DNA of 33,251 bases from contig JAIOQW010000084.1 of NCBI GenBank assembly GCA_021108405.1, forward strand, positions 1-33,251. Direction: 5' to 3'. The stretch is from Methanosarcinales archaeon. Lineage in GTDB: Archaea > Halobacteriota > Methanosarcinia > Methanosarcinales > Methanocomedenaceae. A program made the position numbers and the translations under genes. Under the pieces are notes generated by a model. It was given only the letters and a program-made list of their open reading frames with translations. It made no database searches and was not told the origin of the DNA. Shown here piece by piece: positions 546-17,754 of this stretch (its first letter is position 1; every line of letters starts with the position of its first letter).

Positions 546-746
546 CAGGATGTTGAAGTTGATATAAATTTAGGCTATCTGAAAAAAACAGATAATTTCT
601 TAAGCCAAAATGCTAATTTGATGTTTTCAGCGAAGATTAGAAGAATTGGATACGAGGAAATAGCGTCGAGCTTCACTTGGCAGTTAAACTCGTCAAGATT
701 CACAAACGAGGTGCCGTCGAAAGGACCACCAGGTGACTTCAGCTAA
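546..746 (+). pseudogene. Start-less reading frame forming the first cassette remnant
   Basis: An open frame of 66 codons runs from a stop at 543 to a TAA at 744-746. It reads like real protein (QDVEVDINLGYL..., then ...IRRIGYEEIASSFTWQL, ending ...KGPPGDFS) but has no good start codon. The stop codon sits inside the left core of the following attC-like site, the usual placement for a cassette gene. I do not recognise the family. Most likely it is a 5'-truncated cassette gene. Confidence 0.4.
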
Positions 747-829
747 CACAGCATAAAAAACCCGTGCCTAACGGCACTCACCCAAATTTTTGCATCGTAA
801 AAATTTCTTTTATGCTGGAAACGTCATAT
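742..829 (+). other. attC-like site 1
   Basis: The left core is GCTAAC. The inner arms AGCATAAAA (750-758) and TTTTATGCT (808-816) pair perfectly over 9 bp. The centre contains CACTCACCCAAATTTTTGC. The right core GTCATAT departs from the GTTRRRY consensus by a T-to-C change. It is very similar in sequence to attC-like site 2. Confidence 0.72.
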
Positions 830-893
830 GAAATAGCATAAAATCCGAAAAGGAATAAGATCAAAAACATAAAAAATTTAGAAGGAGGAACTA

Positions 894-1673
894 ATGAAAA
901 CTTTTGAATTTGATGGTGAAAAATATAGAAAAGCGTCAGCTCTTCAAAAAGAATGGGGAATAAAAATAATTTCTGAATTGAACTTGACAGGAAGTGAAAC
1001 GATTCTTGATCTCGGTTGTGGAGATGGAATTTTGACTGAAAAATTAGCTCAACTTGTTCCAAAAGGCAAGGTTATTGGTATTGATGCATCTCATGGGATG
1101 ATCAAAATTACAAAAGAGCTGAAAAGAAATAATTTGATTTTTAAAGTGATGAACATCAACAAAATTAATTTCAAGAATGAGTTTGATTTAATATTCTCAA
1201 ATTCAACTTTACATTGGATAAAAGATCACGAAAAGCTTATAATCAATTGTTTTGAAGCTTTGAAGCTAAATGGAATAATACGATTCAATTTTGCAGGAAA
1301 AGGAAATAGTTCACATTTTACTAAAGTTATAAGAGAGGTGATGGGCTATTTAAAATACCAAAAGTACTTTATCAACTATGAATGGCCATGGTACATACCA
1401 AATATAAATGAATACAAAAACCTCATTTACAGATTCAATTTTAGAGAAGTAAAAGTTTGGGAAGAAAATGCAGATAGATATTACGCTGACTTTGATGAAA
1501 TAATAAAATGGGTTGATCAACCTGTTATCGTCCCATTTTTAATGTGTGTTGATGAAAAAGATAAGAAAGAATTTCGGGATACTGTTATGAAAAAAATGAA
1601 CGAAGAGACTATCCAAAAAGATGGGACCTATTTTGAGACTTTTAGGCGCATTCATGTCTTCGCAAGAAAATAA
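894..1673 (+). CDS. Class I SAM methyltransferase, trans-aconitate-methyltransferase-like (cassette gene)
   Basis: The 259-residue protein has the Rossmann methyltransferase motif I ILDLGCGDG (about residues 37-45), an acidic residue after strand 2 (VIGIDAS), and FSNSTLHWI around the post-motif where trans-aconitate methyltransferases have similar wording. The C-terminal half (WPWYIPN, WVDQPVIVPFL, TYFETFRRI) matches its paralogue at 14483-15265 closely. A strong Shine-Dalgarno AAGGAGG lies at 882-888, six bases before the ATG. The substrate is probably a small carboxylic acid but is not proven. An attC-like site precedes it and a partial one follows within two bases of the stop. The methyltransferase fold is certain; the exact function is inferred. 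Confidence 0.88.
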   Translation: MKTFEFDGEKYRKASALQKEWGIKIISELNLTGSETILDLGCGDGILTEKLAQLVPKGKVIGIDASHGMIKITKELKRNNLIFKVMNINKINFKNEFDLIFSNSTLHWIKDHEKLIINCFEALKLNGIIRFNFAGKGNSSHFTKVIREVMGYLKYQKYFINYEWPWYIPNINEYKNLIYRFNFREVKVWEENADRYYADFDEIIKWVDQPVIVPFLMCVDEKDKKEFRDTVMKKMNEETIQKDGTYFETFRRIHVFARK

Positions 1674-1705
1674 AGGCAACTTCGCATAGCTGCAATACGT
1701 TATAT
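1674..1705 (+). other. Partial attC-like site (right half only)
   Basis: The run GGCAACTTCGCATAGCTGC followed by AATACGTTATAT matches the right halves of the sites at 12303 and 13978. No left core is visible because the methyltransferase stop codon is directly adjacent. The left half appears to have been lost, perhaps by recombination into the gene end. Confidence 0.6.
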
Positions 1706-1748
1706 ATCATTGCTCTGTGATGATGGTGTAACGGATGGAAGAAACAAT

Positions 1749-2396
1749 ATGATCATAAAAAGAAATACTGCGATAGCTCTGATATACTGGCTAGTGTTAT
1801 TCATAATCCTGTTGGCTGCTGGAAGGGCTCGCGAGACGGCTCAGCCAATCTTTATAGTTTTAGGACTAACCTATGTAATATCATCCTGGAGTTCCCTTTT
1901 GATCGTCAAGTTTATTGAACACCGTCCAATTGCGTCGCTCGGCTTCCGTTTGAACTCTCCACTGCGAATCGTACTTTGGGGTGCGGGTGCTTTCATCCTA
2001 GTATCTGCGTTCCTCACTCTCGAGATCTGGTATAGGGTATTTTTTTGTGGGGAACCACTTGGATCGACTGCACCGTCAATTTCCAATTGGGTGCTGGAAC
2101 TCTTATCACAACTGCTGTTCATTGGACTGCCCGAGGAGATCGTAAGCCGCGGCTACTTGCTCACCCGACTAAGAGAGAGTTGGGGTACTTGGCCTGCTCT
2201 ATTGATTTCGTCACTTCTTTTTGGGGTAGATCATCTAGCGTTGGGTGACTTGCCACAAGCAATTCAAGCGGGACTGAGTGGACTGGTGTATGGGTTGGCT
2301 TTTCTTGCAACCGAGAGTGTTTATGCTCCGGCGCTCGCACATAGCTTGAAAAATTTGTTTGGTAGGACGGTTGCCTGGTTTGTTCTCTCGCGTTGA
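1749..2396 (+). CDS. CPBP-family intramembrane metalloprotease (Abi-like)
   Basis: The 215-residue protein has about six hydrophobic segments. It carries the CPBP motifs: a paired glutamate (GLPEEIVSRGYLLTRL), a later HLALGDLPQAIQAGL segment with its histidine, and ALAHSLKNLFG with the last conserved histidine. The family includes Rce1-like CAAX proteases and bacterial Abi proteins, acting within the membrane. ATG 1749 is preferred over an upstream start at 1710 because the hydrophobic region begins directly after it and GGAAG lies at 1738. Base composition is visibly richer in GC than in neighbouring cassettes, which suggests a separate origin. No clear attC-like site follows. Confidence 0.82.
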   Translation: MIIKRNTAIALIYWLVLFIILLAAGRARETAQPIFIVLGLTYVISSWSSLLIVKFIEHRPIASLGFRLNSPLRIVLWGAGAFILVSAFLTLEIWYRVFFCGEPLGSTAPSISNWVLELLSQLLFIGLPEEIVSRGYLLTRLRESWGTWPALLISSLLFGVDHLALGDLPQAIQAGLSGLVYGLAFLATESVYAPALAHSLKNLFGRTVAWFVLSR

Positions 2397-2458
2397 GGTA
2401 ATAGATCGACTGATCGAGCAACTGCGCTTAATGCAAACTTTTCATAGAGGTTAGAAAT

Positions 2459-2605
2459 ATGATCTTACAAGGAGATAAAATTGTTTTGCGACCAATGACT
2501 GTTGAAGAAATTCCCATTTTTTATAAATGGGCTACACAATCAGATTCAACACCTTTTTGGTATAGTGAAGTTTATGGTGGCAATACTACACCTAACCCAG
2601 TATAA
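2459..2605 (+). pseudogene. N-terminal fragment of a GNAT acetyltransferase, cut at attC
   Basis: An ATG-started frame of 48 codons reads MILQGDKIVLRPMTVEEI then FYKWATQSDSTPFWYSE. This is the opening of AacA/RimJ-like GNAT acetyltransferases, in which the LRPMTxED strand is followed by WATQSDxTPFWYG. The family's usual length is about 170-180 residues. Here the frame passes straight into the attC-like site and stops inside its stem (2603-2605). The acetyl-CoA-binding part is missing, so the gene is almost certainly non-functional. Confidence 0.7.
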
Positions 2606-2678
2606 AAGGCTCGTGCCTTATTGTACTCACCCAAATTATTGCTTCGCAAAAACTTCTTTTATGCTGGGAACGTTATAC
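2590..2678 (+). other. attC-like site 2
   Basis: The left core ACCTAAC fits RYYYAAC exactly and the right core is GTTATAC. The inner arms CAGTATAAAAG (2598-2608) and CTTTTATGCTG (2656-2666) pair at 10 of 11 positions plus one G-T. The centre reads TACTCACCCAAATTATTGC. It is nearly a copy of site 1. Confidence 0.88.
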
Positions 2679-2713
2679 ACAATTTAGGCTATGCTTAATA
2701 GAGGGGAAGAATT

Positions 2714-3358
2714 ATGAATACCATTGAAATTTTTGAAAGGTATGCTCAAAAATATGATGAGTGGTTTGATGCAAATAGATTTGCCTATGAGTCCGAAGTT
2801 CAGGCTTTAAAGAAGTTCATTTCAAAAAATAGTAAGGGTTTAGAGGTTGGAGTGGGTACAGGAAGATTTGCAGTTCCTCTTGGTATCAGGATTGGAGTGG
2901 AGCCAGCAAAAGCAATGGCAGATATTGCACAAAAACGTGGGATAGAGGTTTATGAAGCAAAAGCGGAAAAACTTCCTTTTGATGATTCTTCTTTTGACTT
3001 TGTATTGATAGTTGTAACAATATGTTTTGTGCAAAACCCTATACAAGCACTCAGGGAAGCAAAAAGAGTTCTTAAGCCGGGAGGATACATCATTATAGGT
3101 ATGATTGACAAGGAGAGTTTTCTTGGCAAACTGTATGAATCAAAGAAGAAAGAGAGTAAATTCTACAGGCATGCCAACTTTTATTCTACCAGACAAGTTT
3201 TGGATTGGCTTAAAAAATTGGAGTCTGAACATATCAAAACCTGTCAGACAATCTTCAAAAACCCCAAAAAAATAACTGCTGTTGAACCTGTTAAAGAAGG
3301 TCACGGAGAAGGAGGCTTTGTTGTAATCACGGCACAGAAAAAGGAGGTAGAAACATGA
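2714..3358 (+). CDS. Class I SAM-dependent methyltransferase (Methyltransf_11 type)
   Basis: The 214-residue protein has motif I LEVGVGTGRF (residues 43-52), an acidic loop (IGVEPAKAM), LPFDDSSFDFVLIVVTICFV as motif II/post-II, and AKRVLKPGGYIIIGMI as motif III, the standard layout of UbiE/Methyltransf_11 enzymes. The stop codon overlaps the ATG of the next frame (ATGA at 3355-3358), so the two were translationally coupled. The purine-rich GAGGGGAAG sits just before the start. In other genomes such methyltransferases are found next to DsrE-like genes, as here, but the partner is now broken. The substrate is unknown. Confidence 0.87.
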   Translation: MNTIEIFERYAQKYDEWFDANRFAYESEVQALKKFISKNSKGLEVGVGTGRFAVPLGIRIGVEPAKAMADIAQKRGIEVYEAKAEKLPFDDSSFDFVLIVVTICFVQNPIQALREAKRVLKPGGYIIIGMIDKESFLGKLYESKKKESKFYRHANFYSTRQVLDWLKKLESEHIKTCQTIFKNPKKITAVEPVKEGHGEGGFVVITAQKKEVET

Positions 3359-3573
3359 AAATGGGAATCATGGTCTATTCAAACGACTCGGAAACAGTAT
3401 GGAACGCATTTCGGTTTGCAAATTTTGCATTGAAAGAGGGCGACGAAATTGTCGGTTGCTTAGCCTTCAGTCTTCAGGCCAGCGGCGGTTCGATGCCATC
3501 CCCACCCATCGCACTAACCACCAGGCTACCATGCGTGCCCCATCCCACCCGAAGAACTTCAGCGATTGCATGA
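3355..3573 (+). pseudogene. DsrE-like gene truncated after about 33 residues
   Basis: After a strong Shine-Dalgarno (AAGGAGGT at 3341-3348), the frame opens MKMGIMVYSNDSETVWNAF then RFANFALKEGDEI. This is the start of DsrE/DsrF-like (YchN-type) small sulfur-relay proteins of about 110-120 residues. From about 3455 the similarity stops, composition jumps to GC-rich, and the frame runs through unrelated sequence (many Pro and Thr) to a stop at 3573. It is a chimera: DsrE start, unrelated insert, then a phytase tail in another frame. Confidence 0.72.
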
Positions 3574-3614
3574 TTGCTGCGTGGAAGAGAGGGGGATTGG
3601 GGATTTTTGGTAAG

Positions 3615-4130
3615 AAGGTCCGCCAGTGGGATTTAGTCGGTTGTGAAGGAGCTGTAGCAGATGATGAAGCCGGGGTGCTCTTTATTGCTCAGGAAGCAAA
3701 AGGAATTTGGAAAGTAGGCGCTGAACCCTCTGACCCGACGCCTGGTGAACTCATTATCAGAATCCCTCTAATTAGAATCCATCCGAATAATCTTGTACCC
3801 GATGTTGAAGGATTGACAATTTACAAACTTTCCCAAAAGGAAGGCTATCTGATTGCTTCCAATCAAGAAAGGAACAACTTTCGAATTTATGAGCGTGGTA
3901 AAAGTCATAATTACATTGGTACTTTTACTGTCAATCAAGCTCTTCACACAGACGGAATTGATATAGTAAATGTGGATTTAGGACCACTATTTCCAAAGGG
4001 CTTGTTTGCCTGTCATACAGATCAAAAAGATAGCGATTTATGTCCAGTATTAGTAACCCCATGGGATTCCATCGCAACAGCAATGAATCTTAAAACAAAT
4101 ACAACTTGGAATCCAAGAAATACTATATGA
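3615..4130 (+). pseudogene. C-terminal remnant of a beta-propeller phytase (3-phytase)
   Basis: The frame contains hallmark blocks of the BPP phytase family: GCEGAVADDEAGVLFIAQE, GIWKVGAEP, DVEGLTIYKL, GYLIASNQERNNFRIYERG, HNYIGTF, TDGIDIVNVDLGPLFPKGLF and LVTPWDSIA. These are the last three or so of six propeller blades; the N-terminal signal peptide and first blades (over 150 residues) are absent. An ATG at 3399 is in frame but reads through the DsrE fragment out of phase, so it is unlikely to be real. The complete enzyme is a secreted Ca2+-dependent phytate phosphohydrolase; this remnant is probably inactive. No attC-like site follows it. Confidence 0.78.
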
Positions 4131-4213
4131 AATTCCGAACCCTGCTTTCTAAATCAAGTAAAGTATTTTAAAGACATTTTATGTTTAAATAAAATAGAGA
4201 AGGAAGCGAGAAG

Positions 4214-4702
4214 ATGAAACTCAAGAGTAAATTAATTGAATTCATGGTGGTGCATGATTTTATTCCTGCACGAGTAAGATGGAGAAAAAGTGCAAGTGGG
4301 GTCGGTAGAATGTTTAATGATGTTTTTCACATGCTTGATAAAAATGAACGGGTCAAATTGACGAAAATGATGTATTCATGGGGTCTTGCAGATTCTGACG
4401 AAATCGTTAAAACATTGGGAATTGAAAGAAACCTGCACGGATGTGCGATCGCTTTAATGGGAATGCACCGCCTCTTTGGAATAAAGAGCCATATTGCAGA
4501 TGAAAATGCTAACGAAATAAAAATTCATGCAACTGAATGTATGTGGAAGAACAAAAGGAGCTGGACTTCTGAAGTATGTGTATCAATCGACCATTATGAA
4601 AGGGGAATAGTTGATGGTATAAACAAGAACTTAAAGCACTATTACACCACGAGAAGAAGTAAAGGTGATAAATTTTGTGAGCTGATATTAAAGAAATCAT
4701 GA
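4214..4702 (+). CDS. Hypothetical 162-residue cassette protein, possibly ATC-hydrolase-like
   Basis: The soluble protein starts at ATG 4214 behind the purine-rich GAAGGAAGCGAGAAG. Visible blocks are an N-terminal helix followed by HDFIPARVRWRKS, a middle helix-rich region rich in His and Met (GCAIALMGMHRLFGI), and the C-terminal end GDKFCELILKK. The closing GD..CE..I pattern, with a conserved-looking Cys and preceding acidic/histidine positions, is reminiscent of the L-2-amino-thiazoline-4-carboxylic acid hydrolase-like families, but I am not confident. An attC-like site follows 60 bases after the stop, so this gene is a cassette passenger. Confidence 0.62.
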   Translation: MKLKSKLIEFMVVHDFIPARVRWRKSASGVGRMFNDVFHMLDKNERVKLTKMMYSWGLADSDEIVKTLGIERNLHGCAIALMGMHRLFGIKSHIADENANEIKIHATECMWKNKRSWTSEVCVSIDHYERGIVDGINKNLKHYYTTRRSKGDKFCELILKKS

Positions 4703-4761
4703 CTGGTGACCACTTCGGCAGACTCTCGTTCCACTTCGTTCCGCTCGGTACTATCACACTC

Positions 4762-4850
4762 CGATAACAGCGAATATGCGGTTTGTCCTATTGTCGCTCA
4801 CCAAAATTGCTCACTTTGTTTGCAACTTCTCATATCCGCAAATGTTATAC
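4762..4850 (+). other. attC-like site 3
   Basis: The left core is CGATAAC and the right core GTTATAC. The inner arms GCGAATATG (4770-4778) and CATATCCGC (4831-4839) pair at 8 of 9 positions. The centre contains TCGCTCACCAAAATTGC. Confidence 0.85.
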
Positions 4851-4872
4851 GCAATCTGCTTAATCAAAAGAG

Positions 4873-5706
4873 ATGAAGATGATGAAAAAAGAAAATCTTA
4901 AAAAAATTCAGAGAAAACTTGAATGGTTGACTGGAAGGTGGTGGTTTATTCTCGTTTTTGTTTTGCTTGGATTTATACTACCACCATATGCTTCAAAAGG
5001 TTATGAGTATTCAGAAACAGGGAAGGTTATTCAATATATACTTGGAAATTCTTTGCTTCATGATGTATCTTCACTATACCCTATCTTCAAAATACTCCCT
5101 GTTCTTCTGATTATTTCTATATTCTTTTTTAGGAATCGGGTAACACGGCTTTTCAGTATTTATGCAGGGATTACCTATATTCTTTTTGCATTTCTTCAAG
5201 GTATTGGCATAACTGAAGAGTATGGTTTAGGAATTATTACAGGGGATATTATTATGTTGCTTATTGTTGCTGCTTTTTGGTTCTGGGAAGCAAAGATGGG
5301 GAAGAATGACTTTACACCAAAGAAGTTTTCAATCTGGAATTACTGGCCTTTACCTTTCGCATTTTTAGCCTTTTGGTTTCCACTCAACCTTGAAACTATC
5401 AAACCTGATTTCAATCCTATTTATCTATTCACAAACCTGGCTGGTTTAACCTTTTGTATGATGACACCTGTGTATCTGGCAATACTTATCCTCTATTACC
5501 CAAAAGTAAATATCCCGACGCTACGAATTACAGCTCTTTCAGGAATATCTATCGGTTTCTGGAATATGGTAGTGAATTTTTTGATTAAACCCGATATTTT
5601 GTGGTGGAATGGAGTTTTACATCTTCCCTTAGTATTTATATCCATTTATGCTTTCATCCTTTCTTTTAGAAAGCCACAATTGGTAGATGCCAAATATCTA
5701 ATCTAA
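4873..5706 (+). CDS. Polytopic membrane protein, unknown function
   Basis: The 277-residue protein has about eight hydrophobic stretches, beginning with WWFILVFVLLGFILPPYAS. Charged residues are limited to the ends and short loops. The second loop (YEYSETGKVIQYILGNS) is the largest hydrophilic part. I recognise no catalytic motif. ATG 4873 or ATG 4879 could be the start; spacing from the purine run AAAAGAGATGAAG fits either. It starts 23 bases after the attC-like site and is followed 14 bases later by the DUF3795 gene, so both probably travel in one cassette. Confidence 0.75.
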   Translation: MKMMKKENLKKIQRKLEWLTGRWWFILVFVLLGFILPPYASKGYEYSETGKVIQYILGNSLLHDVSSLYPIFKILPVLLIISIFFFRNRVTRLFSIYAGITYILFAFLQGIGITEEYGLGIITGDIIMLLIVAAFWFWEAKMGKNDFTPKKFSIWNYWPLPFAFLAFWFPLNLETIKPDFNPIYLFTNLAGLTFCMMTPVYLAILILYYPKVNIPTLRITALSGISIGFWNMVVNFLIKPDILWWNGVLHLPLVFISIYAFILSFRKPQLVDAKYLI

Positions 5707-5720
5707 AATGAGGGAAAAAT

Positions 5721-6134
5721 ATGAAACAACTTCCAAATGAATTAGCTCCTTGTGGGGTTTTTTGTGGAGCATGTCCTTCCTTTAATAAGACTTGTCTTGG
5801 ATGTGCCTCAGAAAGTAAAGAACAAAAAAGAACAAGTAAATGGGGCTGTAAAATAAGAGATTGTTGCTATAATAGAGAAGAGAAAGACTACTGCATCGAT
5901 TGCATCCAATTCCCATGTAAGAAACACAGGAAGAAACTTCTTAATACTCATACAGGAGATCCGAAGTTTAGATACAGACATGAAATACCGGGTATTTTTG
6001 AAAAGATGAAAGAAATGGGGATAGAGGACTATCTCGAATATCAGGAGCGAAGATGGTCATGCCCTTCATGTGGAGGAATCGTCAATTTTTATCATTACAA
6101 ATGTAGTAAATATGGAAAAGAAGTAAGTGTATAA
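5721..6134 (+). CDS. DUF3795-family cysteine-rich protein
   Basis: The 137-residue protein opens ELAPCGVFCGACPSF and continues with C-rich spacing (CLGCASES, GCKIRDCC, YCIDCIQFPC). This is the signature of DUF3795, small proteins that probably bind zinc or an Fe-S cluster and are frequent in methanogens and anaerobes. A second C-terminal cluster (CPSCGG...YKCSKYG) resembles a zinc ribbon, with its last CxxC degraded to CSKYG. It shares its cassette with the membrane protein before it, and an attC-like site begins 15 bases after the stop. The family assignment is firm; the function is unknown. Confidence 0.87.
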   Translation: MKQLPNELAPCGVFCGACPSFNKTCLGCASESKEQKRTSKWGCKIRDCCYNREEKDYCIDCIQFPCKKHRKKLLNTHTGDPKFRYRHEIPGIFEKMKEMGIEDYLEYQERRWSCPSCGGIVNFYHYKCSKYGKEVSV

Positions 6135-6149
6135 TATTTTTGGCACGTC

Positions 6150-6231
6150 GCCTAACAGCGGATTTAAGCTTCGCTCCTTCGTCGCTCACCCAAATTGCCC
6201 TGCAACTTCTTAAACCCACGAAACGTTATCG
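6150..6231 (+). other. attC-like site 4
   Basis: The left core GCCTAAC matches RYYYAAC exactly. The right core is GTTATCG. The arms GATTTAAG and CTTAAACC form an imperfect stem. The centre TCGCTCACCCAAATTGCCC is the clearest form of the shared motif. Confidence 0.88.
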
Positions 6232-6281
6232 GAAATTACTGGGCTTCCACAAAACCTTATTAACTTTAATACAATTAAATT

Positions 6282-6464
6282 ATGGCTATGGAAAAGAAAA
6301 TTGAAATTAGTTTAATTGCTTTATTCATTGGAATTATTGTAATTGGTGGATATTTTATCCTAAGCAATCAGCCAAAAATTTTAAAAGAAGAATTTGGAAT
6401 TTATCTCTTGGAAAATGATGAAATAATTTCTGGTGTTAACAATGAATCTCAAAATATTCGATGA
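6282..6464 (+). pseudogene. Truncated one-pass membrane protein fused in front of a GNAT gene
   Basis: The frame encodes 60 residues: a short charged N-terminus (MAMEKKIEI), one hydrophobic helix (LIALFIGIIVIGGYFIL) and the start of an outer domain (EEFGIYLLENDEIISG). It then runs into the start of the acetyltransferase gene in another frame and stops at 6464. The break after ISGVNNES suggests that a longer membrane-anchored protein lost its C-terminal domain when the two cassettes joined. No attC-like site separates them. Confidence 0.5.
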
Positions 6465-7287
6465 TGCAAAAACCTTCTACGATAGAATTAAACAAAATTT
6501 TTCAGATAAACAAATGGAAAATGATTTGATGTTGGGTTTAGCCTATCTTCTAATTGATGACCCGAATCATTACGGCTCACAACCATTTTTAGCATCGATA
6601 GAAGAAGATGGAAAAATATTTCTCTGTGCATTTATGACACCACCCTGGAATATTCTAATACATGGAATAGAGGAGTGTCCCGATCTCTCTTATAAAATCC
6701 TGATCGATTATTTATTAGAAGAAAGAATACCTATCCCAGGAGTAAATGGTCGGGCTGATATTTCGAAAAGATTTATGGATATTTGGTGCAACAGGACTCA
6801 AGACAAGTCAGAATTGCATATGGAAAGCCGTTTGTTTATCCTAACAGACGTAAATAAGATAACTAATTCTTCAGGACATTTAGTGAGAGCAGATATGAGC
6901 TATTTTAAACTTTTAAATGAATGGGCGAAACAATTTCATGTTGAAGTAAGATTGGATGTAGAAGATGATTACATTCGAAAGCATGTAAAATATATAATTC
7001 AATCAGGAAATGCATTTTTCTGGATTGATAAAGAACCAGTTTGTATGACTTTTCGTGAACGTCCTCATGAAAATGGAATCTCAATTGGCTACGTATTTAC
7101 CCCACTGAAATTTCGCAATAAGGGTTATGCTTTGAGTTGTACTGCAACTGTAAGTCAGAGAATCCTTAGCAGTGGTTTTGCTTATTGTTCACTGTTTACT
7201 GACCTTACCAATCCCACGTCAAATAGTATCTATCAAAAAATCGGTTATCGATCAGCTTGCGATTATATTTATTATGACTTTAAGTAG
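6442..7287 (+). CDS. GNAT-family N-acetyltransferase
   Basis: The 281-residue protein is a two-part GNAT of the type with an N-terminal domain of about 140 residues (MTPPWNILI, IPGVNGRADISKRFMDIW) and a C-terminal acetyltransferase half (GISIGYVFTPLKFRNKGYA, then LFTDLTNPTSNSIYQKIGY). The KFRNKGYA segment is the acetyl-CoA-binding motif A, and NPTSNSIYQKIGYRSACDY is the standard closing helix and strand. ATG 6442 starts the recognisable protein; a GTG at 6433 is an alternative. Its original 5' region is replaced by the truncated membrane-protein gene. The acetyl acceptor is unknown. Confidence 0.85.
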   Translation: MNLKIFDDAKTFYDRIKQNFSDKQMENDLMLGLAYLLIDDPNHYGSQPFLASIEEDGKIFLCAFMTPPWNILIHGIEECPDLSYKILIDYLLEERIPIPGVNGRADISKRFMDIWCNRTQDKSELHMESRLFILTDVNKITNSSGHLVRADMSYFKLLNEWAKQFHVEVRLDVEDDYIRKHVKYIIQSGNAFFWIDKEPVCMTFRERPHENGISIGYVFTPLKFRNKGYALSCTATVSQRILSSGFAYCSLFTDLTNPTSNSIYQKIGYRSACDYIYYDFK

Positions 7288-7333
7288 TAGCTAAATATTA
7301 TTAACTGGGAGTGTTTTGTCATACTTTTTTTAG

Positions 7334-7367
7334 AGGTAAGGCTATAAAGAAATAATCATTAGTATGA
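7334..7367 (+). repeat. 34-bp copy of a methyltransferase gene end
   Basis: These 34 bases are identical to 13158-13191, where they contain the last codons (...GKAIKK stop) of a methyltransferase and its 3' flank. Upstream, TGTCATACTTTTTTT also matches the gene's TGTTATACATTTTTT. Here it is an orphan tail in front of the YdeI-like gene. Confidence 0.85.
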
Positions 7368-7374
7368 AAGTATT

Positions 7375-10877: not shown

Positions 10878-10914
10878 ATTGGATGAATTACACTATTTGT
10901 TGGTAAACTCAAAT

Positions 10915-10974
10915 CAACCGCGGATACACTCACCTCCTACGGAGTTGAGTGTATTTGCGTTTATCTGCGGTTTT
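10915..10974. repeat. Palindromic intergenic repeat with internal hairpin
   Basis: The outer arms AACCGCGGAT and ATCTGCGGTT enclose an inner hairpin ACACTCACCTCC / GGAGTTGAGTGT. It is related in wording to 211-291 (outer arms) and to 8068-8097 (inner hairpin). It lies in the leader of the methyltransferase cassette. Confidence 0.7.
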
Positions 10975-11061
10975 CCATTATTCACCAACACGAAGACATC
11001 AATAATAAAATGGTCGAATATTATATTAAACAATCTTTTAAATTATAAGGAAATAAAATTT

Positions 11062-11745
11062 ATGGAAATAAATTATAAAGACATTGTGCCGTGGGGTAGG
11101 TCTTTTGACGAATATATCAAAATGTTCTCTCTGATGCCTGATGACCTAAATCTGAAGATATTAGATTGTGGCGGGGGACCTTCCGGTTTCAATGCCGAAA
11201 TGACCAGGCAAGGGAAGAAGGTGATATCAATTGACCCAATCTATAATTTATCCTCTGATGATATTGAAATAGGAATAAATGAAACATATGATGATGTGAT
11301 AAATCAGACAAGACTGAATGCAGATAAATTCATCTGGCAAAATATCTCATCGGTCGAAGAGTTAGGCCGTATCCGTATGGCTGCGATGAAACAGTTTTTA
11401 GATGACTTTGAACAAGGTAAAATTGAGGGACGTTATATTTATACTGAGTTGCCGTCGCTACCTTTTACTGATAAAGAATTTGACATTGCTTTAAGTTCAC
11501 ATTTTTTGTTTTTATACAGTTCAAATCTTTCTTTGGATTTTCACCGAAAAGCGATAAATGAGATGGTTCGTGTCGCAAGGGAGATCCGTATATTCCCGTT
11601 GGTTAATGTTAATACTATTCCATCTCCATATGTTGAGCATATTAAGAACGAACTGGTGAAAAAGGGTTATAAAGTAACAATAGAAAAAGTTGATTATGAA
11701 TTTCAAAAAGGCGGGAACGAGATATTAAGAATTATCAGCAAATAA
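11062..11745 (+). CDS. SAM-dependent methyltransferase-like protein
   Basis: The 227-residue protein opens MEINYKDIVPWGRSFDEY and has a glycine-rich motif I, LKILDCGGGPSGFNAEM (residues 31-47), then VISIDPIY as the acidic strand-2 end, and LPSLPFTDKEFDIALSSHFL as motif II. The family is seen in cyanobacteria and other bacteria, often annotated only as methyltransferase. ATG 11062 is chosen because AAGGAAAT lies about eight bases before it and the family protein starts there; an upstream in-frame start at 10879 would read through the palindromic repeat. The 3' end is duplicated at 18011-18104. The GNAT gene follows 21 bases later, probably in the same cassette. Confidence 0.85.
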   Translation: MEINYKDIVPWGRSFDEYIKMFSLMPDDLNLKILDCGGGPSGFNAEMTRQGKKVISIDPIYNLSSDDIEIGINETYDDVINQTRLNADKFIWQNISSVEELGRIRMAAMKQFLDDFEQGKIEGRYIYTELPSLPFTDKEFDIALSSHFLFLYSSNLSLDFHRKAINEMVRVAREIRIFPLVNVNTIPSPYVEHIKNELVKKGYKVTIEKVDYEFQKGGNEILRIISK

Positions 11746-11766
11746 TTTACTTTTGAGGATATCTGC

Positions 11767-12252
11767 ATGAATAACATTGACATATACACATATCGCATAA
11801 TGAAAACCGAAGAAGCGAATTATTTATATGATATTATATTACAGGTATTTCATAAACATGTTGCACCAGCCTATTCAGAAGAAGGGATTAAGACTTTTCT
11901 CAGGATGCTTTCTCCTGAATTTTTAAAAATTGTGACTCCAGAACAATTCACAATTGTTGCTGAACAAAACGATCAAATTTACGGTACATTGTCTATAATC
12001 AACAAAAACCATATTGCCCTACTCTTTGTGAAGTCTGAAATGCAGGGGGAAGGAATAGGTAAAAGCCTTATTCAATTTGCTACTCATAAATGTTTAGAAA
12101 ATAATCCAGATGTAAAATCAATTACAGTAAGTTCATCTCCTAATTCTTTAACCTTTTACCAAAATTTTGGGTTTATAATTCCCGAAGAAGAAAAGAACGA
12201 AAAAGGTATGCGAATTATACCAATGGAAAAAAAGATTTTTAAATATAGTTAA
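11767..12252 (+). CDS. GNAT-family N-acetyltransferase
   Basis: The 161-residue single-domain GNAT has YRIMKTEEANYLYDIILQVF as beta1-alpha1, IALLFVKSEMQGEGIGKSLI with the Q/RxxGxG/A acetyl-CoA motif (MQGEGIGKSL), and ITVSSSPNSLTFYQNFGFI as the closing motif B. This is a standard length for small-molecule or protein acetyltransferases. The start at 11767 follows TTTGAGGATATCTGC, a moderate ribosome-binding site. It is cotranscribed with the methyltransferase upstream. A half attC-like site follows about 50 bases after the stop. The substrate is unknown. Confidence 0.88.
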   Translation: MNNIDIYTYRIMKTEEANYLYDIILQVFHKHVAPAYSEEGIKTFLRMLSPEFLKIVTPEQFTIVAEQNDQIYGTLSIINKNHIALLFVKSEMQGEGIGKSLIQFATHKCLENNPDVKSITVSSSPNSLTFYQNFGFIIPEEEKNEKGMRIIPMEKKIFKYS

Positions 12253-12302
12253 ATAAAAATAAGTTAGAAAATGGAAATAAAAATTAAATAATTAGAATTG
12301 GT

Positions 12303-12335
12303 AGGGCAACTTCATATAGCTGCAATACGTTAGGC
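12303..12335 (+). other. Partial attC-like site (right half only)
   Basis: GGGCAACTTCATATAGCTGC then AATACGTTAGGC gives a right arm and a perfect GTTAGGC core. The AT-rich 50 bases before it contain no left core. The wording matches the half-site at 1674. Confidence 0.62.
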
Positions 12336-12375
12336 GAAATTTGCGGGATAATTAGTTGAAAAGGAAGATAACAAT

Positions 12376-13179
12376 ATGAACAATTATATTCATGGATACT
12401 CCGGGAAAGAATTAAAGAGACTACAAGATCAAGCAAACACACTTGATGAATTATTACATTATGACTCCATTTTTCCCGAGAATTCAAAAATATTAGAAGC
12501 TGGTTGCGGTGTTGGTTCTCAGATAAAAATAATTGCTCCAAAAAATACTTCATGCCATTTTACTTCAATTGATATTTCCAAAACATCACTTGAAAAAGCA
12601 AGAACAATGATTCAAGCATTGAACATTAAAAATGTAATGTTGCAAATTGGTGATATTTTTAATTTACCTTTTGAAGCTGAATCATTTGACCATATATTTG
12701 TATGTTTTGTTTTAGAACATTTATCAAATCCCGTACAAGCATTACTAAATTTGAAAAAAGTATTACGAAAAGGTGGCACAATAACAGTGATTGAAGGGGA
12801 TCATGGTTCAGCGTATTTTTATCCACGTAGTGATGCTGCGCAAAAAGCTATTAATTGCCAGGTGCAATTACAAGCATTGCATGGCGGAAATGCCCTTATT
12901 GGTAGAGAAATTTATCCTTTATTATATAAAGCTGGTTTTTCAGATTGTTTAGTATCTCCTCGAATGGTTTATGTTGATTCAAGTAAACCATTTTTAGTTG
13001 AAGGTTTTATAAAAAATACGTTTACTGCAATGATCGAGGGTGTTGAAAAGGATGAATTAAATAACTCATTAATAGATAAATACGAATGGGACCAAGGAAT
13101 AAAAGACCTCTATCGGACAGCAGAAAAAGATGGTGTGTTTTGTTATACATTTTTTAAAGGTAAGGCTATAAAGAAATAA
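12376..13179 (+). CDS. SAM-dependent methyltransferase (UbiE/arsenite-methyltransferase-like fold)
   Basis: The 267-residue protein has motif I ILEAGCGVGSQ (residues 39-49), SIDISKTSLEKA as the strand-2 acidic region, GDIFNLPFEAESFDHIFVCFV as motif II, and VLRKGGTITVIEGDHG as motif III. The long C-terminal extension (GREIYPLLYKAGFSDC and onward) resembles natural-product and small-molecule C- or O-methyltransferases. The start codon follows AAGGAAGATAAC. The end of the gene and its 3' flank recur as a 34-bp orphan at 7334-7367. It is followed after 60 bases by an SDR gene without an attC-like site between them. Confidence 0.87.
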   Translation: MNNYIHGYSGKELKRLQDQANTLDELLHYDSIFPENSKILEAGCGVGSQIKIIAPKNTSCHFTSIDISKTSLEKARTMIQALNIKNVMLQIGDIFNLPFEAESFDHIFVCFVLEHLSNPVQALLNLKKVLRKGGTITVIEGDHGSAYFYPRSDAAQKAINCQVQLQALHGGNALIGREIYPLLYKAGFSDCLVSPRMVYVDSSKPFLVEGFIKNTFTAMIEGVEKDELNNSLIDKYEWDQGIKDLYRTAEKDGVFCYTFFKGKAIKK

Positions 13180-13191
13180 TCATTAGTATGA
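13158..13191 (+). repeat. 34-bp segment duplicated at 7334-7367
   Basis: The segment covers the methyltransferase's last seven codons, its stop and twelve bases of flank. The two copies are identical, although what follows differs completely (SDR here, YdeI-like there). This suggests recombination ending at the same point. Confidence 0.85.
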
Positions 13192-13239
13192 TAATTTTAA
13201 TCCCTGACCACACAAAGTTTTAAAAACAATTGCAATATT

Positions 13240-13983
13240 ATGAATACCATGAATTTTAAAAATAAAATTGTTTTAATCACAGGTGCAAGTAGAGGTATCG
13301 GTGCAGAAACTGCAAAGTTATTTTCAAAAGAAGGCGCAACAGTAATTATTAACTATCTCTCAGATGAAGTGTCTGCAAAATCTGTATTAAATAAAATAAA
13401 CAATAACGGCATGCTCATTAAAGCAGACATTAGCAAACAAGACGAAATTAACAGCATGTTTGAGCAGGTATCTGAAAAATACGAAAAACTGGATGTTTTA
13501 GTAAATAACGCAGGTATAGTTTCCGTAAAACCTTTTTCAGAACTTACTCTAGAAGAGTGGAATAAAACTTATGCCGTCAATATCACTGGAATGTTTTTAT
13601 GTTCTCAAAAAGCTATCAAATTAATGAAAGATGGCGGTTCAATTGTTAATATTTCCTCAATAAGGGGATTATTCGATCAAGGGAGAGCGTCAATTACAGA
13701 TTATTCGACTTCTAAAGCAGCCGTTATCAGTTTTACTAAAACATTAGCAAAAGAAGTTGCGCCTAAAATTCGTGTAAATACTGTTGCGCCTGGAATGACA
13801 AATACTGATAATGCAAAATCAATACCAAAGATATCAATAGAAAAATTTAAAGAAGATAGTTATTTAAAAAGACTTATTGAACCAAAGGAGGTAGCACACA
13901 CTATTTTATTTTTAAGCTCTGATGAAGCAAGCGCTATTACAGGAGCATTATTGATAGTGGATGGAGGACAAAGCCTGAGATAA
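13240..13983 (+). CDS. Short-chain dehydrogenase/reductase (FabG-like)
   Basis: The 247-residue classical SDR has the cofactor motif TGASRGIG (residues 14-21), NNAG (89-92), catalytic Ser near 139, and YxxxK as Tyr155/Lys159 (DYSTSKAA). The PG motif (VAPGMTNTDNA) and C-terminal GALLIVDGGQSLR are also standard. It is probably an NADP(H)-dependent 3-oxoacyl or sugar/alcohol reductase; the specific substrate cannot be read. ATG 13240 and ATG 13249 are both possible starts. The stop codon lies within the left core of the next attC-like site, marking it as the last gene in its cassette. Confidence 0.92.
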   Translation: MNTMNFKNKIVLITGASRGIGAETAKLFSKEGATVIINYLSDEVSAKSVLNKINNNGMLIKADISKQDEINSMFEQVSEKYEKLDVLVNNAGIVSVKPFSELTLEEWNKTYAVNITGMFLCSQKAIKLMKDGGSIVNISSIRGLFDQGRASITDYSTSKAAVISFTKTLAKEVAPKIRVNTVAPGMTNTDNAKSIPKISIEKFKEDSYLKRLIEPKEVAHTILFLSSDEASAITGALLIVDGGQSLR

Positions 13984-14085
13984 CGGGTCAAGGATTAAAC
14001 TCAAGGGGGTGCTGCGCTTTCGCTCCCGCTGATCGCTTCACTCAAATTGCCTTGGGCAACTTCGCATAGCTGCAGAACGTTATAC
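13978..14085 (+). other. attC-like site 6 (long, imperfect)
   Basis: The left core AGATAAC contains the SDR stop codon and the right core is GTTATAC. The interior holds TTCACTCAAATTGCCTT and the right arm GGCAACTTCGCATAGCTGC shared with the half-sites at 1674 and 12303. The stem is poor compared with the other sites. Confidence 0.65.
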
Positions 14086-14152
14086 GCAATCGACTTCGGG
14101 ACGCAAAACAATTAAAAAGAAGAAGTAATAAAATTTAGAAGGAGGTAGAATT

Positions 14153-14389
14153 ATGATAAAAATGGAAGAACCAGTAAAATTAGCAATAGTCACAGCCGTT
14201 CTTATGATGGCGGTGACAATATTTTTTAAGAATATAGTGCACGAATCACAAGATGTGGTATCTTTGTCTTCAATTCCATTGTATCTTTATGTCGGATATC
14301 TAATGGGAAAGTTTGGTGATGCTAAAGTTTGGATGGGTACGATGCTGTTTATCACTCTTGCAATGGCCGTATTTTACGCTTTCTTTTAG
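14153..14389 (+). CDS. Small two-helix membrane protein
   Basis: The 78-residue protein has three hydrophobic stretches (AIVTAVLMMAVTIFF, IPLYLYVGYLMG, MLFITLAMAVFYAFF), probably two or three membrane helices with a short acidic linker. I do not recognise a family. It is preceded by a very strong Shine-Dalgarno AAGGAGGT (14139-14146). The 16-base leader AAAATTTAGAAGGAGG is identical to the one before the methyltransferase gene at 894. Confidence 0.72.
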   Translation: MIKMEEPVKLAIVTAVLMMAVTIFFKNIVHESQDVVSLSSIPLYLYVGYLMGKFGDAKVWMGTMLFITLAMAVFYAFF

Positions 14390-14417
14390 AGTTCTTCTTT
14401 GGCGTCCATTCGCCGAA

Positions 14418-14446
14418 TGTCACATATGCTCGGAACATTATATGAC
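14418..14446 (+). other. Possible partial attC-like site
   Basis: TATGCTCGGAACATTATATG resembles the right end of sites 1 and 2 (TATGCTGG then AACGTTATA), with CATTATAT in place of the GTTATAT core. No left half is evident. Confidence 0.4.
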
Positions 14447-14482
14447 AATGAACGTAAATATCAATACAGAGGATAATCAGAT

Positions 14483-15265
14483 ATGGAAACTAAATATCAA
14501 TTTGATGGGAAGAGATATGAAAAATCATCTGAGCACCAAAGAGAATGGGGTAGTAAGTTGATCGAAGAATTAAATTTAAAAGGAGATGAGACTATTCTTG
14601 ATCTCGGGTGTGGAAACGGGCTTACAACAAAAGAACTCGCCAGAAAAGTTCCTAATGGAAAAGTTGTTGGAATTGACAATTCCATTTCGATGATTGAAAC
14701 AGCAAAATCTCATAAAACAGAAAATATGGAACTGATGCTTCTTAACATAGATGAAATGAATTTTGATAATGAGTTTGATGTCGTATTCTCAAATGCTACT
14801 CTTCATTGGGTATTAGACCATAAAAAACTTCAAAAGAATATTTACAGTGCCTTGAAACCAAACGGGTTTATGCGAATACAGTTAGCAGGTGATGGCAATT
14901 GCTCTAACTTTTTTGAGGTCGTCAGAGAGTGTATAAGTCTTCCGGAATTCAGAACTTATTTTGAAAACTTCACGTGGCCATGGTACATGCCAGATATTGA
15001 GGAATATGAAAAACTACTTTCATATGCAAAATTTGAGAATTACAAGATTTGGGGAGAGAATGCAGATCGCTATTTTCCAGACGAAAAATCTATGATTGGA
15101 TGGATCGAACAGCCAAGCATTGTTCCGTTTCTTGTGGTATTTCGAGAAAATATGAAAAAATTGTTTACAGATTCAGTAATTGAGAGAATGATTAAGAAAA
15201 CAAAACAACCAAATGGAACTTGTTTTGAAACTTTCAGAAGGATAAATGTATATGCCAGAAAGTAG
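14483..15265 (+). CDS. Class I SAM methyltransferase, trans-aconitate-methyltransferase-like (paralogue)
   Basis: The 260-residue protein is clearly a paralogue of the one at 894-1673. The same opening (FDGKRYEKSSEHQREWG), motif I ILDLGCGNG (residues 38-46), VVGIDNSISMIETA, VFSNATLHWVLDH, WPWYMPDIEEYEKLL, WIEQPSIVPFL and CFETFRRINVYARK run the full length. The shared length and conserved end rule out truncation. It is followed two bases later by a complete attC-like site. The substrate is probably a small carboxylate; Tam-like naming rests on fold similarity only. Confidence 0.88.
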   Translation: METKYQFDGKRYEKSSEHQREWGSKLIEELNLKGDETILDLGCGNGLTTKELARKVPNGKVVGIDNSISMIETAKSHKTENMELMLLNIDEMNFDNEFDVVFSNATLHWVLDHKKLQKNIYSALKPNGFMRIQLAGDGNCSNFFEVVRECISLPEFRTYFENFTWPWYMPDIEEYEKLLSYAKFENYKIWGENADRYFPDEKSMIGWIEQPSIVPFLVVFRENMKKLFTDSVIERMIKKTKQPNGTCFETFRRINVYARK

Positions 15266-15266
15266 G

Positions 15267-15370
15267 GTTCAACATTACATCCGGGCTAAACGGTTTCGTT
15301 CGGTTTCACCTTACTCCATCCAAATCCTTCCGTTTCTCTACAGGACTTCGTTTAGCCCTATATGTTATAT
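15267..15370 (+). other. attC-like site 7
   Basis: The left core GTTCAAC fits RYYYAAC exactly and the right core is GTTATAT. The arms GGGCTAAACG (15283-15292) and CGTTTAGCCC pair perfectly over 10 bp, the best stem in the array. The centre TTACTCCATCCAAATCC is a diverged form of the shared motif. Confidence 0.88.
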
Positions 15371-15479
15371 GACATTCCGAATCCCACCTTAAAAAAAGAA
15401 AGTTATTTATACATATTCAAGTGTAATAAATTATGGAGAAAAAAAAAGAGAACATGGTTTTAAGAAGGTGATTGAAAAA

Positions 15480-16109
15480 ATGAACAAACAAATATTTCTA
15501 AAATGGTTTAAAATCAACAGTTTATGTTTTATAGGTACCTTTATTATAATATTTCTTCTAGTCCAATTATTTCCCAATATTATGCTCGGATTTTGGGCGG
15601 GATGGGCTTCTTTAATAGAGCAGACAGGAACCAGGGGAGCAGCAGAATTTTCTCCTGATTTCAATACATTCATCAGTATACTCTGTAGAAACAGCATCTC
15701 AGTCTCTATTGTTTTTGTCGTCGGACTATTCTTACAGGCACCAATTTTGATGATAGTGTATGGTTCATTATATTCTCTTGTAGTTTCTCTTGCCCCGCTA
15801 ACGATTGGGAAAACCTTCACCTTTTTCGACTGGATTCTAATTACAACCGAATCACTTTTCTTGATAGTAAGCGCAACTTTCGCATCAACTCTTGCAGCGG
15901 AAATATTTGGAATAAAACCAGAGATAAAACAGTTGTTAGAGTATTGGAAAAAGCAGTTGACGGATTGGAAGAACCCCTGGTCATTTCCTGAGCAAAAAAG
16001 AAACTGGCGAATTGTGTTTAAAGAAAATAAAAAAGAATTTGTTTTATTTATCATAATAATCTTAGCATTGCTATTATTTGGAGCGTGGTTTGAAGTTTGG
16101 GGTTATTGA
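15480..16109 (+). CDS. SpoIIM/DUF95-like integral membrane protein
   Basis: The 209-residue protein has about five membrane segments (SLCFIGTFIIIFLLVQLF, ISVSIVFVVGLFLQAPIL, MIVYGSLYSLVVSLAPL, LFLIVSATFASTLAAEIFG, FVLFIIIILALLLFG). The order, with a conserved-looking RNSISV...FGI region, resembles stage II sporulation protein M (DUF95) proteins, which are widespread in archaea and not tied to sporulation there. ATG 15480 follows AGAAGGTG about ten bases earlier; a GTG at 15468 is possible. It is followed by the ICMT-like gene and shares a cassette with it. Confidence 0.68.
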   Translation: MNKQIFLKWFKINSLCFIGTFIIIFLLVQLFPNIMLGFWAGWASLIEQTGTRGAAEFSPDFNTFISILCRNSISVSIVFVVGLFLQAPILMIVYGSLYSLVVSLAPLTIGKTFTFFDWILITTESLFLIVSATFASTLAAEIFGIKPEIKQLLEYWKKQLTDWKNPWSFPEQKRNWRIVFKENKKEFVLFIIIILALLLFGAWFEVWGY

Positions 16110-16186
16110 AATGGAAATCAAAGTAGCTTTTTTTTTCATAAAAATAGAAGGAGCAAGCTTGAAGAAAATATTAAAAAGATAAAATT

Positions 16187-16702
16187 ATGAATTTCAGAAA
16201 AATCGAAAAATTGATGAAAGGTGGCTTTCTCTACTACATAGCGGGAGTCTTGCTGGTCCTGGCCTATCTGTTACTCTGGTTTTTAGATAAACCTGCTGGT
16301 ATCGATGAGCTATGGTATGCCGGATGGATGATCTTTGCGGTCGGACTTGTCCTAATTTTTCTGCCTATGTTTGTTTTTCGCAATAAGGGCAAGGTGAAAA
16401 AGGAAAAGGATTGGACCAAGACCTCAGTCCTTGTTGATACAGGAATATATTCCATTGTTCGACATCCGCTCTATCTGGGTTGGTTACTCATGTACCTTGC
16501 AATTATTTTCTGGAGTCAGCATTGTTTGACAACAATTATTGGGATTATAGGCATGGCATGTGTCTACTCAATTTCAAAACAAGAAGACCAGCAACTCGTT
16601 GAGAAGTTTGGCGATGCCTATAAACGCTATATGAAATCTGTGCCGAGGATAAATATTTTAGTTGGGCTTATCCGATTGCTACGACGTAGAAATAAAGATT
16701 GA
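16187..16702 (+). CDS. Isoprenylcysteine carboxyl methyltransferase-like membrane protein
   Basis: The 171-residue protein has about four helices and the ICMT/PEMT signature GIYSIVRHPLYLGWLLMYL followed by KQEDQQLVEKFGDAYKRYM and SVPR. In this family the RHP and the E of the ExxL...FG..Y..Y motif bind SAM and the phospholipid or prenyl-cysteine substrate. It is probably a membrane methyltransferase of lipid or isoprenoid-like substrates; the exact target is unknown. It is the last gene before a complete attC-like site that starts eight bases after its stop. Confidence 0.9.
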   Translation: MNFRKIEKLMKGGFLYYIAGVLLVLAYLLLWFLDKPAGIDELWYAGWMIFAVGLVLIFLPMFVFRNKGKVKKEKDWTKTSVLVDTGIYSIVRHPLYLGWLLMYLAIIFWSQHCLTTIIGIIGMACVYSISKQEDQQLVEKFGDAYKRYMKSVPRINILVGLIRLLRRRNKD

Positions 16703-16709
16703 AAATGGT

Positions 16710-16801
16710 AACTAACTCCACGCGAATACCTGGCTACGCATCGCTCCGCCAAAAGTGGCTTCCGTTGGTCGCCAACTTCAAGTATTCGCGGGACGTTATG
16801 T
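16710..16801 (+). other. attC-like site 8
   Basis: The left core is AACTAAC and the right core GTTATGT. The arms CGCGAATAC (16721-16729) and GTATTCGCG (16782-16790) pair perfectly over 9 bp. The centre TCGCTCCGCCAAAAGTGGC is a diverged version of the shared motif. Confidence 0.87.
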
Positions 16802-16872
16802 GTAATTGAAAAAGTGCCAAGAATTTGAAAAGATTAATAAACATCATTTTTACTTTGTAAGGAATGAGTAAT

Positions 16873-17637
16873 ATGAAAATTATCAGTATTGATAAAAACA
16901 ATATCGACCAAGAACATATTTGTTGTGCTATTGGAAATGACAAAAAGAACAAAAGCAGAGCTCAATCAAAAAAAGATTGGATGAAGAAAAGATTTAATGA
17001 TGGATTAACATTCAAAAGATTTGATGAAAGGGGCAAGATTTTTATAGAGTATATGCCTATTGAAAACGTTTGGAAACCAATAATTGGGACAAATTTTATG
17101 GTCATTAATTGTTTGTGGGTTTCTGGAAAATTCAAGGGGAAAGGATTATCAACACAATTACTAGATGAGTGCATAAAAGATGCAAAAACACAAAAAATGG
17201 ATGGAATTGCTGTCGTTAGCAGCACGAAAGTAAAACCTTTTTTGACTGATAAAAAATTCTATTTGAAACATGGTTTTGAAGTTGTTGATTCAACTCCACC
17301 ATATTTTGAATTACTTGTGTTGAAATTCAATGAAAAAGCAAAGAACCCATCATTCACAGACAATGTAAAAAATGGCACATGTTCAAATAAAAAAGGATTT
17401 ACTTTCATTTATTCAAATCAATGTCCTTTCATGGAAGAATATGTTGAACTATTGTCTGAAATTTCCAAAACTAAGAAAATACCTTTTAAGGTTATAAAGT
17501 TACAGATTTATAAAGAAGTACAACAAATAGGAAGTCCTTTTGGAACACTTGGAATTTATTACAATGGTGAATTTAAAACTCATGAACTGATGTCAGAAAA
17601 AAAGTTTGAGAAGTTCATTGACGAAGTAAAAAAATGA
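16873..17637 (+). CDS. GNAT acetyltransferase with C-terminal YoaP domain
   Basis: The 254-residue two-domain protein has an N-terminal GNAT part (NCLWVSGKFKGKGLSTQLL, the acetyl-CoA loop KFKGKGLS) and a C-terminal thioredoxin-like YoaP domain (FTFIYSNQCPFMEEYVELL with a single Cys, then GSPFGTLGIYYNGEF). This fusion is a recognised family in methanogens and anaerobic bacteria. AAGGA at 16859-16863 is spaced correctly for ATG 16873; ATG 16864 is too close to it. It lies between two complete attC-like sites and therefore represents an intact single-gene cassette. Confidence 0.9.
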   Translation: MKIISIDKNNIDQEHICCAIGNDKKNKSRAQSKKDWMKKRFNDGLTFKRFDERGKIFIEYMPIENVWKPIIGTNFMVINCLWVSGKFKGKGLSTQLLDECIKDAKTQKMDGIAVVSSTKVKPFLTDKKFYLKHGFEVVDSTPPYFELLVLKFNEKAKNPSFTDNVKNGTCSNKKGFTFIYSNQCPFMEEYVELLSEISKTKKIPFKVIKLQIYKEVQQIGSPFGTLGIYYNGEFKTHELMSEKKFEKFIDEVKK

Positions 17638-17659
17638 TAAGAGACACTTTTTCAAAAGC

Positions 17660-17754
17660 ACATAACAGCGGCTATAAAGTTTCGCTTTGCAGTTCGCTTC
17701 GCTCACCCAAATTCCGCCTTCGGCGGAACTTCGCATACACTAAAAACGTTAGGC
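17660..17754 (+). other. attC-like site 9 (last complete site)
   Basis: The left core is ACATAAC. The right core GTTAGGC is a perfect GTTRRRY. The centre TCGCTCACCCAAATTCCGCC shows the shared motif followed by a tight CCGCC-TTC-GGCGG hairpin. Arms further out pair poorly. Confidence 0.82.

Follow-up and report, generated by a model that had tools for sequence, protein, structure and literature searches.

The window analysed here is the whole stretch of 33,251 nucleotides that forms contig C22 of a metagenome-assembled genome (MAG) of a Methanosarcinales archaeon. Its left part carries short co-oriented genes in tandem, followed by sites resembling the attC recombination sites of integrons, the cassette systems by which resistance genes spread among bacteria, together with the relic of a tyrosine recombinase gene of a XerA/IntI-like group that we call family A; its right part carries uvrA, tRNA-Val(CAC) and mtrA-mtrH. 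An earlier note on this DNA had proposed an integron cassette array in an archaeal chromosome, and our results support that proposal, as an attC covariance model recovers the sites and comparison with relatives makes an assembly chimera unlikely.

attC sites and cassettes of the window

To locate attC sites, we trained a covariance model, R1, on 24 attC-like sites from related archaea, picked among the matches to a short pattern and stem scan, with no window sequence in the training set. R1 returned nine complete attC sites in the window, all on the + strand (28-57 bits; expectation values, E, of 2e-11 to 2e-4). With filters off, the next-best match in the window had E 0.93. Across the MAG, R1 found 24 sites on 14 contigs at E <= 1, and the two weakest window sites had a genome-wide E of 0.016-0.018. 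This search of window and genome had been proposed in the earlier note, whose counts of nine complete and about three partial sites both held; the partial sites end in GTT or ATT near 1699, 12329 and 14436.

The sites fall into two blocks. Block 1 (741-6234), which begins near the contig end, comprises site 1 (741-832; R'' AGCTAAC, 11-bp inner arms, R' GTCATAT; 47.8 bits), site 2 (2590-2681; 57.2 bits), site 3 (4762-4853; 53.1 bits) and site 4, which closes it (6150-6234; 54.3 bits). Block 2 (10714-17757) opens with site 5 (10714-10799; 28.7 bits; arms eroded) and continues with site 6 (13994-14088; 28.5 bits; arms mismatched, either hybrid or eroded), site 7 (15272-15373; 44.2 bits), site 8 (16710-16804; 47.9 bits) and the closing site 9 (17660-17757; 43.9 bits; arms eroded). 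Two of the partial sites, also on the + strand, belong to repeat family D1: one at 1674-1710 keeps only the 3' half, with its GTT at 1699, and one at 12304-12340 is likewise a 3' half, with its GTT at 12329. No attC-like sequence was found at 546, where the array had been said to start; the first site begins at 741.

In the nine sites, R'' and R' cores surround complementary L'' and L' arms, which are good in six and eroded in three (10714, 13994 and 17660); inner arms of 8-11 bp had been claimed for most complete sites. Cores fitting RYYYAAC/GTTRRRY had been claimed for several sites; the strict GTTRRRY form was present only in the GTTAGGC R' boxes of two complete sites (10790 and 17748) and in one partial site. 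Arm covariation was 0.49 in the R1 training set (0.14 when shuffled) and 0.45 in the matches from the MAG itself (0.15 when shuffled), in alignments that lean towards structure by selection or fitting. The bottom-strand fold clearly beat shuffles in three of the nine window sites only (z of -3.3, -2.5 and -3.6 for sites 1, 7 and 8). Other searches were discarded: a generic arm-pairing scan with bacterial spacings, in which many chance palindromes outranked real sites; RNAalifold on a MAFFT alignment of the window sites, which gave no pairs because MAFFT misaligned the arms; and a pattern scan of viral contigs, which yielded mostly chance matches among the matches listed.

In integrons, a cassette begins within R' of the preceding site, and its first bases complement R'' of its own attC. 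We assessed this signature in 30 adjacent co-oriented pairs from the group. The mean matching run was 2.33 of 5 variable bases, compared to 0.74 in unrelated pairs; at least three of the five bases matched in 43% of the pairs, compared to 7% in the null set, and none of 5000 permutations was as good. Complementarity between R' and R'' of the same site, in the same 30 pairs, was at null level. Because cassette starts complement their own R'' across these pairs, the cassettes are taken to have been joined at G/TT in R'; on this evidence, cassettes of this type have recombined at G/TT in the relatives and at one window pair.

The site type was also compared with plasmid sequences, a weaker test than this mechanistic one. 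When 7.3 Gb of plasmids were searched by blastn with one archaeal site, the best match, a weak one (E 0.2), was a stretch of the Klebsiella plasmid NZ_CP044036 that sits between aac(6')-Ib and ere(B) beside intI1, in a class 1 integron. R1, untrained on this site, scored it at 65.6 bits (E 3e-13). The class 1 attC shares the common plan R''-L''...CCAAATT...AACTTC-L'-R' and the cassette start GTTGGGTGCAAT; it differs in its bacterial host and in the adjoining canonical intI1. As judged from sequence, the window sites are true attC sites.

Two further patterns were observed in the sites. The R'' boxes of sites 3, 4 and 5 complement the R' boxes of sites 4, 5 and 6 over 9-10 nt each (4762-14088); this match is offset from the expected order and may be a coincidence of common cassette-start types or the trace of a rearrangement. 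In addition, several sites (L185:5094, L193:1266, L147, L148 and the window site at 13994) are hybrids, with L'' and L' arms from different site types, and look as if halves had been swapped through the conserved centre.

The cargo was assigned by Pfam matches, and these bore out the methyltransferases, GNATs, CPBP, YdeI and DUF3795 named earlier. All genes lie on the + strand unless stated. In block 1, the cassette genes encode a class I methyltransferase (894-1673; Methyltransf_11, 1e-18), a CPBP/Rce1-like membrane protease (1710-2396; PF02517, 5e-19), a second methyltransferase (2714-3358; PF08241, 2e-21) and a DUF3795 protein (5721-6134; PF12675, 1e-6). A phytase-like fragment (3399-4130; PF02333, 8e-31) covers profile positions 191-358 only, and the cassette at 3355-4130 is a mosaic, in which a DsrE-like N-terminal fragment is fused into the truncated phytase domain. 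A GNAT-like gene (6433-7287; PF08445, 2e-6) and a YdeI/OmdA-like gene (7375-7950; PF13376, 1e-13) follow, and an archaeal-type ATPase gene on the - strand (8312-9976; PF01637, 8e-11) breaks up the array. In block 2, the cassette genes encode a methyltransferase (11062-11745; PF08241, 2e-5) whose tail is copied at 18010-18105, a GNAT acetyltransferase (11767-12252; PF13673, 2e-32), a methyltransferase (12376-13179; PF13847, 8e-24), a short-chain dehydrogenase (SDR; 13240-13983; PF13561, 1e-67), a further methyltransferase (14483-15265; PF13847, 5e-22), an ICMT/PEMT-like methyltransferase (16187-16702; PF04191, 4e-9) and a protein with GNAT and YoaP-like domains (16864-17637; PF14268, 8e-13), whose cassette start GTTATGTG complements R'' of site 9.

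An alternation of sites and genes over 17 kb (546-17754) had been claimed. The array is real, but it is split by a 4.5-kb gap that holds the inverted ATPase gene and the recombinase relic, and cassette debris runs past the claimed end to about 18110, including remnants of the methyltransferase cassette at 10816-11729 in a second copy (17872-18105, + strand; direct repeats D5 and D2, 94%). The reversed ATPase gene, the partial sites and the duplicated cassette pieces indicate that the array has decayed. By the criterion for clusters of attC sites lacking integrases (CALINs; two or more attC spaced by less than 4 kb, with no intI nearby), the window contains two such clusters.

A family A recombinase at the head of arrays

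To identify the integrase, the MAG was searched with the integron-integrase profile, as the earlier note had suggested. It contained no IntI, the best match reaching 39 bits against a cut-off of 265; what it did contain were relics of the family A recombinase, which heads attC arrays in relatives. The 39-bit match, a 198-residue recombinase on contig C58, was rejected as an integrase, being a generic Xer core. Canonical IntI was found in 0 of 394 genomes of the phylum, and IntI exceeded the cut-off in 3 of 238 genomes of the class, each time on a short contig of an incomplete MAG. An IntI of 325 bits in a related genome (G022, contig C41) was set aside as the resident integrase: its C-terminus is disrupted ahead of the catalytic tyrosine, and its contig has no good attC and looks mobile or bacterial. 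This gene (3446-4360, - strand) retains the I2 region and adjoins a different Xer-like gene.

Across the group, pieces of another tyrosine recombinase recur close to attC sites. We defined family A as loci at least 45% identical to an intact protein from the single-contig genome G018, searched for them in 51 attC-bearing genomes of other families, and scanned the surroundings of the resulting 56 loci with R1 (98 kb upstream and 76 kb downstream). The results showed attC downstream in the same orientation at 23 of 56 loci, at a median of about 760 nt from the gene. At none of the 56 did attC follow the gene in the opposite orientation or precede it in either, despite the larger amount of upstream sequence searched. 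None of 30 more distant Xer control loci (21-40% identity) had any attC, and the Methanoperedens-type Xer genes (40-44% identical) had none within 1.5 kb.

A conserved dyad, for example GATATACGAACTCAAGTTCGGATATC, lies between the family A stop codon and the first attC, 26-166 nt past the gene, and is followed a few bases on by GTTA. From that GTT on, 14 of 30 loci match the reverse complement of the first attC's R'' over 9-10 nt. A matrix for this attI-like site was trained on these 14 sites and applied to held-out loci. Eleven of 32 held-out loci scored above 11, ten of them with the site as the best of the locus, including contig C102 of the MAG itself; all 22 control Xer loci scored below 6.6. 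The order in relatives is putative integrase, attI-like dyad and attC cassettes, all in one direction.

The family A protein has SAM-like and catalytic domains with the R, K, HxxR, H and Y residues present. IntI (TIGR02249; 2a3v) shares this architecture, with a SAM-like N-terminal domain and the same catalytic residues, but the spacing from KGxKDR to HxLRHSF is 114 residues in IntI and 73 in family A, which lacks the 41-residue insertion around the I2 helix. Family A scored 242-253 bits against the NCBI XerA_Arch model (NF040815), above its cut-off of 220, and 215-237 bits against the integron-integrase model (TIGR02249), below its cut-off of 265; its best solved relative was Vibrio cholerae IntI4 (2a3v, E 1e-45). 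In a small tree with weak inner support, family A grouped with IntI and the Methanoperedens Xer, apart from generic Xer. It resembles archaeal XerA (NF040815; 4a8e, 5hxy) in passing that cut-off and in its dif-like attI dyad; it differs in its place at the head of attC arrays with a cassette junction, which generic Xer genes in those genomes do not occupy. In the intact G018 protein (L201), the SAM-like domain is preceded by an HTH_17 domain of excisionase type at the N-terminus and by a KYWEVP segment.

In the window, the relic of family A spans 10102-10161 on the + strand and includes the catalytic HxxR box; 18 of 18 residues agree with those of the intact G018 protein (E 4e-6). It is co-oriented with block 2 and lies 550 nt upstream of the first attC of that block, as in intact platforms. 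A reading of the relic as a remnant of IntI was rejected, as it matches family A. With the recombinase gene reduced to a relic and several sites eroded, the window array is probably frozen, that is, immobile in cis.

Chromosomal setting and spread among archaea

The MAG comprises 3.67 Mb in 363 contigs and is 99% complete and 2% contaminated. As had been noted, the contig continues into archaeal chromosomal genes: uvrA (19524-22352, - strand; Pfam UvrA domains) is 94% identical to its counterpart in the same-genus genome G001 and 75-77% to those of other family members, and mtrA-mtrH (22536-24173, + strand; PF04208, PF02007) encodes an MtrH 91% identical to that of ANME-2 (anaerobic methanotrophic) cluster archaeon HR1, with all ten matches in ANME-2 or Methanosarcinales MAGs. 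A G001 scaffold (C124) carries, in the same order, the SDR cassette (95% identical), the right edge of the array (100% over 18100-18149, at its positions 3130-3179) and the ArsR gene (93%), the last preceded by an N gap on that scaffold. The junction of array and host lies at 18106-18149 (+ strand), within the tail of a chorismate-mutase-like gene, of which G001 has a longer version, and the host ArsR-type regulator (18661-19018, - strand) matches over 18850-18993. The window itself contains no N bases, and another site-bearing contig of the MAG (C21) has flanks 93% identical to G001. By these comparisons, the array is part of the archaeal (ANME-2) chromosome. Dispersed repeats at 18164-18233 and 19030-19164, just right of the array, occur in many contigs of the MAG and its family and are native to the group.

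R1 sites were present in 44 of 120 relatives. A scan of the phylum sample at E <= 1e-6 gave matches in 96 of 394 genomes, and nearly all genomes of one family (f4), mostly closed, were negative. G018 has 34 sites on its single contig of 1,922,745 bases. They are scattered over both strands, many of them single, which suggests either repeated insertion away from a platform or the break-up of old arrays.

Integrons have been described in archaea before: Ghaly et al. 2022 (PMC9668308) report attC arrays in archaeal MAGs, mostly without IntI. Archaeal integrons are therefore not new in themselves; the new part is the integrase. Those integrons and CALINs are alike to ours in their short co-oriented genes, attC shared with bacteria and acetyltransferase-rich cargo; they differ in that their IntIs carry the IntI-specific domain, which the head gene here lacks, and in that single sites were excluded from the counts, whereas many sites here are single. 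Our MAG or its relatives may be among the 75 genomes of the study. The Spirochaetota integrons of reversed orientation mentioned there also have the integrase co-oriented with the array, but theirs is IntI. The literature searched, whose coverage was incomplete, yielded no account of integrases without the insertion at attC arrays.

Competing explanations and biological meaning

We consider it likely that the window holds a decaying ANME-2 integron array, in two blocks of attC cassettes, whose resident integrase was most likely family A and not IntI. Family A (XerA/IntI-like, without the IntI insertion) would be the catalyst that joins cassettes. Its gene would head the array in the orientation of the cassettes, followed by the attI-like dyad where the first cassette begins. 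In the window, decay of this gene to the relic would have left the array unable to move in cis, and the array would persist as a vertically kept store of small genes.

Several observations weigh against this interpretation. Cassette capture is reported to require the I2 helix, which is said to occur in no other protein, and no I2-less intermediates were known (PMC7790495); the insertion has also been called essential for integron function (PMC8138268). Family A is not cleanly set off in the tree (support 47/79), and 33 of its 56 loci have no detected attC, in part because contigs end. The family A query came from a locus already seen beside attC, though the loci tested lie in other genomes. 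Within the window, the relic is just 18-20 residues long, no attI scores with the matrix, and the cassette-start signature appears in just one of six testable pairs (16710-17660), as expected of an old and eroded array.

The cassettes might instead have been placed by a bacterial-type IntI, since lost or acting in trans from other cells, which would make the array a plain CALIN and family A an unrelated neighbour. Most reported archaeal integrons are CALINs (PMC9668308); an integron integrase has been reported in one ETH-SRB1 genome (PMC9391474), and the three class genomes with IntI above the cut-off could be counted here, albeit all on short contigs of incomplete MAGs. We nevertheless regard this explanation as unlikely, because family A preceded the attC sites in the same orientation in all 23 cases that have attC (compared to 0 of 30 for other Xer), first cassettes start at the conserved dyad beside family A, and the 394 phylum genomes contained no IntI. 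Family A could also be a frequent cassette cargo, which would fit its constant co-orientation with a downstream attC. This is very unlikely, as the attC lies at that median of about 760 nt, with the attI-like dyad and a cassette start between, rather than directly past the stop codon, and no attC was found in the 98 kb upstream.

Two further explanations appear highly improbable. The fragmentation of the MAG into 363 contigs leaves room for an assembly chimera, or for bacterial contamination joined to archaeal sequence, but G001 shares the neighbourhood from array to ArsR (with its N gap), the sites are spread over 14 contigs of the same MAG, with C21 flanks matching G001, and they occur across single-contig genomes; a chimera is unlikely given this shared neighbourhood, the sites throughout the 1.92-Mb contig of G018 and a window without N. 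The single sites scattered on both strands, as in G018, would suit dispersed palindromic repeats similar to miniature inverted-repeat transposable elements (MITEs) or repetitive extragenic palindromes (REPs), and we give such repeats an equally slight chance: the cassette start pairs with R'' of its own attC and not within one site, which is specific to cassette recombination, and sites of this type also stand between cassettes of a class 1 integron.

That archaea and a class 1 resistance integron have an attC type in common supports the idea of a cassette pool shared between archaea and bacteria. Beyond the window, it seems somewhat more probable than otherwise that a distinct integron operates in archaea of this phylum, above all in methane- and alkane-oxidising lineages, with an I2-less XerA/IntI-like integrase encoded co-oriented at the head of the array, a dif-like attI and bacterial-type attC. 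Such an integron would either survive from a stage of integron evolution that preceded I2 or have come to attC recombination by an independent route. The ability of integron integrases to recombine single-stranded attC hairpins is attributed to the I2 helix; if the proposal is true, a recombinase without I2 at the head of attC arrays, next to its own attI, would open the origin of integrons to direct testing, and many archaeal arrays that look integrase-less, because their integrase is the I2-less family A, would have one that has gone unrecognised.

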